A stretch of 64,000 bases of DNA from an uncultured Planctomycetales bacterium (GTDB lineage: Bacteria; Planctomycetota; Planctomycetia; Isosphaerales; Isosphaeraceae). Position numbers and translations under genes: made by a program. Positions 58,742-64,000 of this stretch are shown here, in pieces. Position 1 is the first letter of the stretch. Each line of letters begins with the position of its first letter. The stretch spans positions 1 to 64,000 of the forward strand of contig CAIYJE010000055.1 in assembly GCA_903926465.1 (NCBI GenBank), read 5' to 3'. The notes beneath the pieces were generated by a model, which ran no database searches, was not told where the DNA came from, and saw only the letters and a list, made by a program, of their open reading frames with translations.

Positions 58742-58834
58742 TATAGCGGTTCACGAATCGGTTGCACATACAAACAACCCCAGGAGACAGCCGGGGGCGG
58801 CTGTCCTACACGTGCAACCCAACTGCGGCGCTAT
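58742..58834. repeat. MITE-like element, copy d
   Basis: The left end is TATAGCGGTTCACGAATCGG then TTGCACATA (58742-58770). The hairpin core starts GACAGCCGGGGGCGGCTGTC and continues CTAC (58786-58809), as in copy a. The right end is GTGCAACCCAACTGCGGCGC then TAT (58812-58834). It touches the stop codon of the last DAB-operon gene (58834-58836), so it may act as that transcript's 3' hairpin. Confidence 0.78.
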
Positions 58835-60303
58835 CAGTCCTTGGGAACCGGCTCGACCTCTACCTTGTGATGCAAATCGGGTTTCTCGGTTGCATCTGGC
58901 TCAGAGTCTGCTCCCACCCGGCTCACGCGGTCTTGCAAGATCTGGCGGGCCGCACGCACCCGGGTTTGAACTCCGGGGGCTGGAAAGATTCCTCCCAGCA
59001 AGATCAGCGCAACCAGCGTCAGCACGGCAACCCGCTCTCGTCCCACCATCTTGAGCGAGATCGACGTGTGGTGTCTGGCCCCTGTGAAAATTGAGAAGTA
59101 TCCCCGCATCACGGCAATCCCGTTCAGGGCACCGGCGATCACCACCAGCATTCCGATGATCGGGTTGGCTTCGACCGCACTATCCACCAGCAACTCGGCG
59201 GCGATGAAGCCGACTGTACCCGGAAAGCCGACGCAGGCGAGCCCCGTCAACAAGAAACAGACGGCCAGGCTGGGAATATTAGGGTACAGTCCGTGGAAGC
59301 GGGTGAGTGTGAGCCGTCCGAATCTGGACTCAATGGCCCGGAGTGTGAGGCCAAAACCGCCCAGAGAGAAGATGGCAGAGAACCAGAGGCAAAGTGATGC
59401 GGTGAATGAGAGTTCGGTGTGGATTTCCAGGCCGACGAGCACCAGAGAAGTGTTGCTGAGGAACAGATAGGCAAACAGCCGGCGGGTTTCGTGCTGGATG
59501 GTGCCCATGGCGGCCGCGTAGATGGCCGTGACGAGTGAGGATGCGGCGATGCCAGAGAGGATCCAGCCAGGCGCAATGGGAAGCACCAGGCGAACGGCCG
59601 CCAGCACTCCGGCCAGCGGGGTTGCGTACAGAATGGCATTGCCGAACGAGGCATGCTCAAACCAGTCGGTTACCCAGCAGTGCATCGGCACCGTCCCGCA
59701 CCGGATCAGAATAGCGAGCATCAGCGGCACGCTGGAGATGCCCAGGCCCAAAGCCGAGCCCGTACTGAACTGGACACCGGCCCAGCCAATGATCAGCAGG
59801 CCGACGAAGAGCCCCATGTGAATGACATAAAGTCTGGTGGGCTTGCGGCGGTTAACCAGCTCGATATACGGGGGCACGCAACTGATGGCCAGCAGGCCGA
59901 CCAAAATCCAGCCAGGCTGGCAGGTGAACATCGCCAGCCGGATGGCTTCCGAGACCAGCGACCAAGAGAACGAGAAGTTGCGCATCTTGGTCCGGGCCGT
60001 GGCCAAGGCCGTCAGGAAGTGGAGCAGGGCGATGGCGGGTACCAAGGCCGCGGAAAGCTGATCAACGGCGAACAGTTTCTGGCCGAAGAGGGCGAGCGAC
60101 GGACTCCAGACCTCGTGCGCGTCTGCCGGGCTAGCCAGGCTGAAAGTCAGCCACGCCAGGCAAGAGGTCACAAATGTCAGGCCTGTGAAAATAATTCCCC
60201 AGCGCGCGGCCTGGACCGCTTGCTTGAGCTGGCTAACCCAGACCGAGCCGAAAAGCGCCAGGATGATCGACAACTCGAGCCAGGGTAGGTTCGGGATTCT
60301 CAT
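58834..60303 (-). CDS. second NDH-like membrane subunit of the DAB operon (NuoM/NuoN-type)
   Basis: A 489-residue protein with about 13-14 helices of the proton-conducting NuoL/M/N/Mrp family. The central region is 'GTVPMHCWVTDWFEHASFGNAILYATPLAGVLAAVRL', corresponding to the NuoM/N 'vPFHxWlPDaxexAp' block, and RRLFAYLFLSNTSLVLVGL. Where NuoM/N has the essential Lys before the 'vP' motif, this protein reads LIRCGTVP, with Arg. The C-terminal tail is acidic and polar (about 35 residues). The ATG at 60303 overlaps the stop of the NuoL-like gene by 4 bp (ATGA), so they are coupled. It presumably adds a second proton path, or a regulatory half, to the DabA-DabB pump. A MITE-like element follows immediately. 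Confidence 0.82.
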   Translation of the reverse strand: MRIPNLPWLELSIILALFGSVWVSQLKQAVQAARWGIIFTGLTFVTSCLAWLTFSLASPADAHEVWSPSLALFGQKLFAVDQLSAALVPAIALLHFLTALATARTKMRNFSFSWSLVSEAIRLAMFTCQPGWILVGLLAISCVPPYIELVNRRKPTRLYVIHMGLFVGLLIIGWAGVQFSTGSALGLGISSVPLMLAILIRCGTVPMHCWVTDWFEHASFGNAILYATPLAGVLAAVRLVLPIAPGWILSGIAASSLVTAIYAAAMGTIQHETRRLFAYLFLSNTSLVLVGLEIHTELSFTASLCLWFSAIFSLGGFGLTLRAIESRFGRLTLTRFHGLYPNIPSLAVCFLLTGLACVGFPGTVGFIAAELLVDSAVEANPIIGMLVVIAGALNGIAVMRGYFSIFTGARHHTSISLKMVGRERVAVLTLVALILLGGIFPAPGVQTRVRAARQILQDRVSRVGADSEPDATEKPDLHHKVEVEPVPKD

Positions 60304-61700
60304 GAGATTTCGTCGATCACTCCAAACGGGGTTGCCACGCGGTCGGATTCCCTTGAGGCTTCGCCCGAGAGCAGGTTGGTCCAGCGTCGCTCCAGCCCAT
60401 CGCACCAGTGGGCGGCCCGCACAAACGGACGAACGCCCCAGGTGATCAATGCGGCATCAAAATAGCCGCGCTCAAGACCCAGCCGGTAAAGCCAGGAGAG
60501 TGCGGGGCCATTGGCAATTCTTCGCCAGGGCGTTGTGGTTTGTGGAAGATGGTCGCCAATTGCGTTTTCCAGTTTCTGGTAGTCATTCAGCAGCGACGGT
60601 GCGCGAAGGAACTGGGAGGTTCGCAGGCAAGCGTGCCCCAGCATGTGGACCAGCGGGACATAAAGCGGGATGTACTTCCAGAGCCCAATTTCCGCAACAA
60701 TGATCCCCACCTGCGTGAGCGAGGCATACGAAAGGGCCGACTTGATGTCGGTTTGCACACTACCTGCAAGGTAGGCAAAAAAGGCTGTACTCAGGCCCAG
60801 CACAACCACCAAAACCGACAGCACGGGGGAACAGGCCAGAAGTGGGCTTAGCCTGAGTAACAGATAAACCCCCAGATGCACGGAAACCGCGCCATAGAAA
60901 ACCGCACTTGAGGGGGTTGGACCTTCCATGGCCCGCGGCAGCCAACCAGAGAACGGAATGAGCGCCGACTTGCCGGCGGCTGCCGCCAGGCACAGTGACC
61001 CAATGAGCAGCGCCTGGCCCGAGGAAATCATGGCATGCTCATAAGGCCACACATCGGCCCCCAGAAGTTCGTCAAAGTCTCCCTCGCCCCCCAGGTGATG
61101 CATCACCACCACGGCCAGCAGCAGCGCAGCGTCTGAGAAGCGGTAAACCGACCAGACCCAGAGCGCGTTCCTGGACGGTCCTGGCCTGGACTGGTAATAC
61201 CCCACCAGCAGGGCCGAAGATAGACCGACCATCTCCCAGCCTGTGAACAGGGTCTCGCTGGTGCCGGCCAGCGCGGTAACCACCATGCCCAGCAAGAAAA
61301 GGCTGTAAAGCACAAAAAAACGATTGAACCCGCGTTCCCTGTGCAGGTAGCGGCTGGAGAATGCGCCAATGGTGCCCGACAGCACAAACGCCAGAATCAC
61401 GAACGGGACCGACAACCGGTCAAAGATGAATTTGAGCGAGAAGTGGTAAAGCCCCGGTATGGCCACCCAGTTTCCCAGTTCAATCGGTAAAAACCGGATC
61501 CCCAGAATGAGCATGCCGGCGAGGACAGCCAAGGCGGCCAGCAGGCCAACCGCTGTGCCAACCTGGAGAATTCGGGTGGTGGTCTGCTCTGAGAACGGTC
61601 GGTCGAACAGCGAAACCACCCCCAGCAGTAGCAGCAACGAGAGTGGGGCTAGAATCACGAGCAGACCGAGGAAAGTCATCAAGTGTTGAGGCGTCGGCAT
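60300..61700 (-). CDS. dabB: DabB-like NuoL-type proton-conducting subunit
   Basis: A 466-residue NuoL-family membrane protein. Conserved parts are SSRYLHRERGFNRFFVLYSLF, ETLFTGWEMVGLSSALLVGYYQSR with the intramembrane Glu, AGKSALIPFSGWLPRAMEGPTPSSAVFYGAVSVHLGVYL with the key Lys, and DIKSALSYASLTQVGIIV. In DAB (DABs accumulate bicarbonate) systems, DabB couples cation flow to the carbonic-anhydrase-like DabA. The gene begins 23 bp after dabA ends and overlaps the next subunit by 4 bp. The ATG at 61700 is chosen over an upstream start at 61775 that would overlap dabA. It is shorter than NuoL (about 610), as DabB proteins are. Confidence 0.9.
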   Translation of the reverse strand: MPTPQHLMTFLGLLVILAPLSLLLLLGVVSLFDRPFSEQTTTRILQVGTAVGLLAALAVLAGMLILGIRFLPIELGNWVAIPGLYHFSLKFIFDRLSVPFVILAFVLSGTIGAFSSRYLHRERGFNRFFVLYSLFLLGMVVTALAGTSETLFTGWEMVGLSSALLVGYYQSRPGPSRNALWVWSVYRFSDAALLLAVVVMHHLGGEGDFDELLGADVWPYEHAMISSGQALLIGSLCLAAAAGKSALIPFSGWLPRAMEGPTPSSAVFYGAVSVHLGVYLLLRLSPLLACSPVLSVLVVVLGLSTAFFAYLAGSVQTDIKSALSYASLTQVGIIVAEIGLWKYIPLYVPLVHMLGHACLRTSQFLRAPSLLNDYQKLENAIGDHLPQTTTPWRRIANGPALSWLYRLGLERGYFDAALITWGVRPFVRAAHWCDGLERRWTNLLSGEASRESDRVATPFGVIDEIS

Positions 61701-61723
61701 CTTGGAATCCGTTTTCTCCGGTC

Positions 61724-64000
61724 TCAGGCCTGGATTTCTGCGAACTCGAGGTGTTCTCTCCAGCCCCGGTACCATTCCGCGCTTGATTGTGCGGTAGGAA
61801 GAGACAGGGCCTGGGGTTGATAGGGCTGAAACACGCCATCCTCATAAACGCTCAGCTTTTTGGTTTCTGGGTGAACCACGGTAAGCTGAACCCAGCCGTT
61901 CCGGCATAAGCGGCCGACAACGGGGTTCTGGGCGATCAGCCGAAGCATGGCTTCCGGCAAGACCTCGATCACGAACATGAGGCGAACCGGTTCGTGGATT
62001 TCTACCATCTGCCAGGGCAGGCCGGTTCTGAGGTCACTGGCCGCGCCGTCCATCACCCCCACCAATGAGGTGATGTTATGAGGCAGCTTGGTCCCCGCCC
62101 CCCAACCATGGTTATCAACGGACGAGAAGTAGTATTCCAGGTTAATGCCCGCGCATACTGGAAAAACCGCGCTCAGGATCCGGTTCAGAATTCCGTTGGC
62201 GGCATCATCCGTACCGGGGTTGTACGAAACCAGGAATGCGCGACGATCAAAATAAAGCCCTCGGGTTAGCTCACGAGGGGCCACAATGCAGAGTGCGTTG
62301 GTCGCATGGCCGAGTTCCGGTCGGGCCTGGGCCATATCTTCCGAGCGTCCTTCCACATGTTCTCTGGCGCCGGTGGGCGAGAGCGTGAGCTGGGCCGACT
62401 GGAACCGTCGACTGCGCTCGTGGGCATCGCGTTCTCTCGCCAGTTCGAAGTCATTGCGCGCTCGTCCAAACTCGGCCATGTGGCTGGGTGGAACCTGGTC
62501 AAGATCGAAGTAGGTCACCGCGTCATTGCAGGTGTTGTGCATGCAGCCAACAAAGTAGGTCTCTGGCGGCACCAGAATGCCCCGATTTGCCAGCAATTGC
62601 CTGACCCGGTGATCATTGAGCAACTGGGCCAGTGCTCGGGCGTTAGGGCCGCCAGGCGACCCGCCACATGCGCCACAGTCATAGGCCGAACGGTGGGGGT
62701 TGTTGATGCTGGTGGAGCCGTGACCAACAATGAAGACCAGCCGGGCGAAGCCCGAGGTGAGGCCGATTTCCTGAAGGATTTTCTGGCCGATGTTGGCCAT
62801 TTCCTCCAGGTTGAACCCGATATGGCCCCCTTCCGGACCGGTCTCGGCTTCAGTTCGTTCAAGCTGGAGCCTGGTGCCAACCGGAGCTTCCACAAACTGA
62901 CCGATGCGTGACTTCACACGCGAGGTCATGCGTGGAAAGAGGGTGCGAGCGATCAGCGGGGCCGATACGAAGACACCCACCATCGAGGTGAGCAGCGCCC
63001 CCAGCGTGGCCGACCGGCTCCCCTTGTGAAGCGTGTGCGTGGCCTTGCCAAGCGCGCGTCTGGCCTTGGCCCGCCGGCGATGGCTTGATTCCAGATCCAC
63101 CGCCACTTTTTCCGTGACCCAGTGCTGGGGCCGAATGACCACCGGACAGAGGGGCACAAAGTGTGCGTCGTTGATGCCGCGATAGTAAATGGGTACCGAG
63201 AAGAACCCGGCGGTGCCGTAGGTCACACAGTCGTGCGCCACTTCTTCCAGGTGACGACGGATCGATTCTTCTCGCTCGTCGATGCAGAAGACCGCCTGAA
63301 ATCTTGGCTTCTGATCCGCATGTCGCGGTCGATTGGCGTGCAGGGCAATTGCATCCAGCGCCTGGGTGTAAAACCTGCGCTCGTATGCCAGGTGGAACAC
63401 GCGACGCCGTTCGATTGCCGTGAAGGTCTCTACCTCGCGCAGAAGTTCCGCCCAACCTTCGTGATCGAGCCGATACAGGACATCGGGCGAGAAGCCCATG
63501 ACCTGGGCGATCTGGAAAACCAGGAACGCCCGCTGCTGAACGCTTGGGGGCCAATCCTGTTTAATGCCGCCACGAATTTCGTCTCGTAGGCCGGCCAGTG
63601 GCCCGCTGTATCCCAGGCCTTCATGCGCCGACCATGCCAGCGCCTGGCGATCCAGCAACAGCCGCACGGCCAGGAATTCGATCAGGCTGCCTGCGGGAAT
63701 CGGATGAACCACACGATCGCCGCGGGTCTCGATTTGCTGCACCATGCCGCCCCAGCCACGCAACGCGAGCAGGGTGGATGCCAGGTATTCTTCCCATTCG
63801 TCGGCCGGAACGCCCAGATCTTCCAGTGACTCACGGATCGACTCCAGGGGCGTCATCCCCTGGTCCTGCATCTCCCCAAGCTTGCGGTCCAGGCCGCTCA
63901 TCCAGCCGATTGGTGGCCCAAAGGGACGGCGAAACAGCGAGCAGAACGCGATGAAGAATCCCTCTTCACGCCTGGGAAGTTGCCACTGGGCCAACCCCTG
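61724..64000 (-). CDS. dabA: DabA (DUF2309) inorganic carbon transporter subunit, 5' end outside window
   Basis: The visible 758 residues belong to DUF2309, now known as DabA (also UPF0753). It is a beta-carbonic-anhydrase-like protein that, with DabB, hydrates CO2 to bicarbonate in an energy-driven way at the membrane. The zinc site is readable: AVFCIDEREES (Cys and the Asp/Arg pair, about 63278-63289), FIVGHGSTSINNP (His, about 62715), and CGACGGSPGGPNAR (Cys, about 62670), plus GCMHNTCNDAVTYFDLD. The frame is open to the last base, and the family is usually 800-1100 residues, so the start lies beyond 64000. It is first in the run dabA, dabB, NuoM/N-like. No carboxysome or RuBisCO gene is present here; an anaplerotic role in a heterotroph is inferred. 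Confidence 0.94.
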   Translation of the reverse strand, partial: QGLAQWQLPRREEGFFIAFCSLFRRPFGPPIGWMSGLDRKLGEMQDQGMTPLESIRESLEDLGVPADEWEEYLASTLLALRGWGGMVQQIETRGDRVVHPIPAGSLIEFLAVRLLLDRQALAWSAHEGLGYSGPLAGLRDEIRGGIKQDWPPSVQQRAFLVFQIAQVMGFSPDVLYRLDHEGWAELLREVETFTAIERRRVFHLAYERRFYTQALDAIALHANRPRHADQKPRFQAVFCIDEREESIRRHLEEVAHDCVTYGTAGFFSVPIYYRGINDAHFVPLCPVVIRPQHWVTEKVAVDLESSHRRRAKARRALGKATHTLHKGSRSATLGALLTSMVGVFVSAPLIARTLFPRMTSRVKSRIGQFVEAPVGTRLQLERTEAETGPEGGHIGFNLEEMANIGQKILQEIGLTSGFARLVFIVGHGSTSINNPHRSAYDCGACGGSPGGPNARALAQLLNDHRVRQLLANRGILVPPETYFVGCMHNTCNDAVTYFDLDQVPPSHMAEFGRARNDFELARERDAHERSRRFQSAQLTLSPTGAREHVEGRSEDMAQARPELGHATNALCIVAPRELTRGLYFDRRAFLVSYNPGTDDAANGILNRILSAVFPVCAGINLEYYFSSVDNHGWGAGTKLPHNITSLVGVMDGAASDLRTGLPWQMVEIHEPVRLMFVIEVLPEAMLRLIAQNPVVGRLCRNGWVQLTVVHPETKKLSVYEDGVFQPYQPQALSLPTAQSSAEWYRGWREHLEFAEIQA

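Follow-up and report, generated by a model that had tools for sequence, protein, structure and literature searches.

A three-gene class of DAB-type operons with a NuoM-like third gene and altered coupling residues

The structure of the two-gene inorganic-carbon system DAB2 (2026, PMC13144422) names the zinc ligands, an Asp–Arg pair and a proton path in DabB2. In DAB2, the finger residue Glu444 of DabA2 substitutes for K399/D400 of NuoL, and Ile is found at the position of NuoL Glu144 (PMC13144422). Activity is abolished by E444A or E444Q and significantly impaired by H260A or K347A, and it was proposed that proton flow via DabB and the DabA finger activates CO2 hydration (PMC13144422). In complex I, the NuoL pairs Glu144/Arg175 and Lys229/Asp178 lie close to where membrane subunits meet (PMC13144422). 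Before this, COGNAT (2017, PMC5700660) had reported ybcC (= dabA) upstream of a nuoL homologue, often with COG1008 (NuoM), and had suggested that additional membrane subunits would lead to more ions being moved.

The DNA analysed here (the window) is a stretch of 64,000 nucleotides at the start of contig C55 of an uncultured planctomycete. An initial annotation had described a DAB-type inorganic-carbon pump in which dabA is followed by genes for two unlike NDH-type membrane subunits, first a NuoL-like gene and then, through an ATGA overlap, a NuoM/N-like gene. All three genes were found on the minus strand in the order dabA-dabB-T, where T denotes the extra third gene, and the Pfam matches and gene order bear the description out. 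dabA, of the three-gene class, is located at 61724-64825 of contig C55 (minus strand; 1033 aa) and crosses the window end, so that only its 3' part (61724..64000) is inside the window; the in-window portion of the product matched PF10070 with 714 bits. The dabA stop is separated by 23 bases from the ATG of dabB at 61700. The dabB gene (60300-61700, minus strand; 466 aa) codes for a NuoL-like product matching PF00361 and PF00662 (Proton_antipo_M/N), and T (58834-60303, minus strand; 489 aa) for a NuoM/MrpD-like product matching PF00361 (Proton_antipo_M; 73 bits). The ATGA at 60300..60303 (minus strand) combines the ATG start of T with the TGA stop of dabB. An isocitrate dehydrogenase gene on the same strand, about 350 bases downstream of T, is probably outside the system. 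Judged by its sequence, the locus is a DAB/DAC system in the broad sense, with a PF10070 protein carrying the zinc site and an adjacent PF00361 NuoL-like subunit.

The host genome (6.9 Mb, 99.7% complete) also has an ordinary two-gene dabB-dabA locus without T on contig C15 (L004:8450-12699). It codes for nine PF00361 proteins and two beta-carbonic anhydrases, and a search for RuBisCO gave no match in this genome; the role of the three-gene form is thus not tied to carbon fixation by RuBisCO.

Related loci were collected in two ways. Among 199 planctomycete genomes, strong T matches adjoin a DabA of the ~1000-residue type, with dabB in between. About 85,000 species genomes were then scanned with the DabA alignment alone as query, so that T was not selected for, and 80 loci were obtained. 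By record title, these belong to Planctomycetota, Myxococcota, Verrucomicrobiota, Acidobacteriota, Actinomycetota (Saccharothrix), Elusimicrobia, Armatimonadetes and Gemmatimonadetes; MAGs are numerous and some isolates are included. In the wide-scan and planctomycete loci together, the three genes occur in order on one strand at 82 of 98 loci, a sample conditional on similarity to the DabA class of the window, so that the statement is that this class has T and not that every DAB does. Nearly all of the remaining loci stop at a contig edge; L115 and L047, both described below, are the exceptions. A DabA census of a further phylum had hits in 3 genomes out of 199, a number too low to contribute, and was left out of the counts. 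In seven genomes that were checked, the three-gene-class DabA was in most cases the sole DabA; a Verrucomicrobiaceae MAG (L115), with three DabA in its genome, carries the three-gene operon twice in a stretch of 19 kb, once on each strand. Matches to T on plasmids were weak NuoM/Mrp matches, and DAB context was absent.

The initial annotation had allowed for the third gene being unlinked in relatives, which the 82 loci contradict: wherever the contig has sufficient length T is linked, the one orphan T being a shortened gene for 322 aa (L047:5691-6659, genome G054) that retains the Arg and the TM12 acid described below; dabA and dabB are absent from its surroundings and the genome gave no DabA match. 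Chance overlap or a sequencing artefact is ruled out by the 82 conserved operons. Long open frames at some loci (for example L045 and L046) were considered as gene fusions and rejected, as they look like ORFs prolonged in the upstream direction in GC-rich DNA, with dabB in another frame. Pairwise distances within the operon were correlated, most strongly for DabB and T (r = 0.94, reached in 0 of 2000 permutations), with r = 0.83 for DabA and DabB and 0.81 for DabA and T, and the DabB and T subtrees are largely alike. T is an inherited part of the operon, not an incidental neighbour.

The DAB2 sites were mapped via the two-gene proteins of contig C15, which align to the 9rd0 chains. The window DabA has C514, D516, R518, H702 and C717 as the equivalents of the zinc-site residues C351, D353, R355, H524 and C539 of DAB2, and these residues are kept in both classes in every aligned row with letters. 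At the finger Glu444 position, the window DabA has Ser614 (codon 62984-62986). Glu was found at this site in 18/18 two-gene DabA and in 0/93 three-gene DabA, which carry A, G, S, T, L, V, P or F instead; these and the following residue counts are not independent trials, since the swaps may stem from one ancestral event. The loss does not depend on the exact alignment, because an acidic residue within three positions either side of the site is found in all 18 two-gene proteins and in none of 97 three-gene proteins.

The window DabB retains E156 (the equivalent of NuoL E144), R187, D190, K244, K320, H352 and H356, with Y269 in place of DAB2 H260 and R360 in place of K347. The NuoL E144 site is Glu in 90/91 three-gene DabB as against 0/17 two-gene DabB. 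In the three-gene class, H260 is replaced by Tyr (89/90), K347 by Arg (86/87) and S316 by Ala (79/89), while K235, K310, H339 and H343 are largely retained. The DabA and DabB classes differ in the same way within one genome that has both, so that the pattern tracks the class and not the species.

Structure models were made of single chains of DabB and T. In the DabB model (pLDDT 76.8), residues 8-435 match NuoL 1-561 with about 400 aligned, leaving some 130-160 NuoL residues unpartnered; 9rd0_B was absent from the structural match list of this model, and no inference was drawn from its absence. The DabB–NuoL profile alignment extends as far as residue 376, and the final 95 residues of DabB resemble NuoL 528-562 (E 0.0014, a weak match). 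From these alignments and the model we read the three-gene DabB as a NuoL-like protein lacking TM12-14. In the tree, built by a quick method with SH-aLRT support only, three-gene and anammox-like DabB share a clade from which both NuoL and the two-gene DabB are excluded.

T is predicted to have a complete 14-TM antiporter fold (pLDDT 82.8), matching MrpD with Z 44.7 and NuoM with Z 44.4. The initial annotation had pointed to an Arg in place of Lys in the LIRCGTVP motif; this Arg, R201 in TM7, aligned with NuoM Lys234, is present in 81/81 T relatives and is therefore no local oddity. Arg also occupies the TM7 Lys position in one NuoN of the host genome. The TM5 Glu and the TM8 Lys are absent from all T proteins scored (0/82 each), and the TM11 His is mostly lost. 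An acid in TM12 is kept (78/80), one position past NuoM E407 and corresponding to NuoL D400; it is E370 in the window (codon 59194-59196), and the exceptions are His in the Saccharothrix T (L082) and Gly at L041. The loss of these path residues argues against T working by itself as a conventional pump. In the same phylogeny, T forms its own clade next to NuoM+NuoN and separate from NuoM+NdhD3 (SH-aLRT 97 and 96 in this quick tree); its assignment to NdhD3 or NuoM is unsupported.

Loci L053-L057 belong to one planctomycete family (f45), and we take their genomes, from the family and from paired dab operons, to be those of anammox bacteria. At L053, L054 and L055 two divergent dab operons are adjacent, both coding for a long DabB, and the Glu444 site is I or H in six anammox-like DabA. 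In one of the two operon types, the DabB has 653 aa and consists of a three-gene-type DabB and a stretch matching T with 66 bits at either locus (residues 208-416 of T at L053, 309-416 at L054); the TM12 acid of T is included and its first half is absent. The other type of DabB (665 aa) gave no significant T match, and a similar 'GVPG...WEYL' stretch was seen by eye. With part of T fused to two anammox-like DabB, it seems to be the second half of T that a shortened DabB needs. A different extension was seen at L062:891-3437 (genome G106), where an 848-aa two-gene-type DabB has a second antiporter-like domain at its C-terminus; the DabA of that locus keeps Glu444.

We consider it an even chance that the operon encodes a three-subunit inorganic-carbon accumulator of the DAB/DAC type in which DabB and T form a single proton route, and infer how the subunits dock, which path and ion are used, and the hydration of CO2 itself, as follows. 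DabA would be the cytoplasmic, carbonic-anhydrase-like, zinc-bearing part, and DabB a shortened NuoL-like subunit giving the cytoplasmic half of the proton path. Docking of T on DabB in the manner of NuoM on NuoL is proposed because the NuoL interface pairs are kept in DabB where a NuoM-like gene is adjacent, and the Glu is lost elsewhere. The TM12 acid of T (E370) may help to supply what is missing on the periplasmic side of the path, T thereby taking the role that DabB TM12-14 and the DabA finger Glu444 have in two-gene DAB2, and proton flow through the DabB–T pair would drive one-way CO2 hydration in DabA. In the NuoM–NuoL geometry, TM12 of T would face the TM5 side of DabB, whereas the lost Glu444 was located on the side of TM12, and that E370 directly takes over from Glu444 is therefore a guess. 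The stricter form of this scheme, which we judge less likely than not, is a split proton channel with only the cytoplasmic half in DabB and only the periplasmic half in T; in at least five phyla, a former antiporter would then carry the coupling residue once borne by the carbonic-anhydrase-like subunit.

T might instead be structural, moving no ions and serving as a membrane anchor for the finger of DabA and for the shortened DabB, with the path made by DabB and the altered finger. The dismantled central charged chain of T would agree with such a role, as would the retention of most DAB2 path residues in DabB; a mere scaffold would, however, have no need of the TM12 acid, which is kept in 78/80 T proteins and also in the anammox-like fusion, and we regard this explanation as unlikely. 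Use of another ion (Na+), or movement of bicarbonate in place of CO2 hydration, with T tuning the choice of ion, is improbable. The homologue MpsAB has been argued to use Na+ (PMC13144422) and Mrp antiporters resemble T, but the Staphylococcus MpsAB-type proteins examined carry E444, H260 and K347, so that the swaps do not mark Na+ coupling and its deduction from them was rejected; the intact zinc site also speaks against this explanation. Two independent channels, with DabB and T each moving an ion per CO2 hydrated at a higher coupling ratio, as the initial annotation had envisaged and as the COGNAT authors had also suggested (PMC5700660), would suit the full 14-TM fold of T and the operon context, but are likewise improbable, since T has neither the TM5 Glu nor the TM8 Lys (0/82 for each) and in most cases no TM11 His, and DabB lacks TM12-14, which leaves neither protein with a complete canonical path.

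Returning to the three-subunit scheme, the loci make up a widespread natural class without the coupling residues of DAB2 and with an untouched zinc site. Either the coupling proposed for DAB2 is not general, or coupling is re-routed via a third subunit. The three-gene form might have been well described already: the arrangement is indeed known (COGNAT, PMC5700660), and the residue pattern was not found described. Clade C of COGNAT (ybcC-nuoL with COG1008 NuoM and/or COG0659), matched by its description, very probably has the same arrangement; that account predates the DAB function and has no residue analysis. Because COGNAT had reported the neighbourhood, the new content is at the level of residues and not the discovery of an operon. 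A literature search gave no treatment of the three-gene class since the characterisation of DAB, a mention in Desmarais 2019 or Schmid 2021 still being possible. The gene arrangement has thus been known since 2017, and what is apparently new is the pattern of residues in the light of the DAB2 structure of 2026.

Among known systems, Staphylococcus MpsABC has DabA and DabB homologues as here; its mpsC is dispensable and not conserved beyond staphylococci (PMC6689103). DAB1 of H. neapolitanus (DabA1, Hneap_0908, DabB1) likewise has three genes, but its third gene codes for a small transmembrane protein (PMC13144422) and T is a 489-aa NuoM-like protein. As a stand-in for DAB1, a Nitrobacter hamburgensis plasmid (L152:993-6879) carries dabB, a third gene whose 253-aa product gave no Pfam match, dabA with Glu444 kept and a PII gene, and a second copy starts downstream. 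Cyanobacterial NDH-1MS (NdhF3, NdhD3, CupA) also joins a part that hydrates CO2 to two further subunits, one NuoL-like and the other NuoM-like. NDH-1MS is powered by ferredoxin oxidation within complex I, and NdhD3 keeps the Glu and Lys lost by T and groups with NuoM, not with T. The system resembles DAB2 of Halothiobacillus neapolitanus (DabA2-DabB2; PDB 9rd0) in its zinc-site residues and in most residues of the cytoplasmic half-channel. DAB2, with two genes, has Glu444, H260, K347, TM12-14 and an Ile at the E144 site; the three-gene class differs from it at all of these points and has T added.
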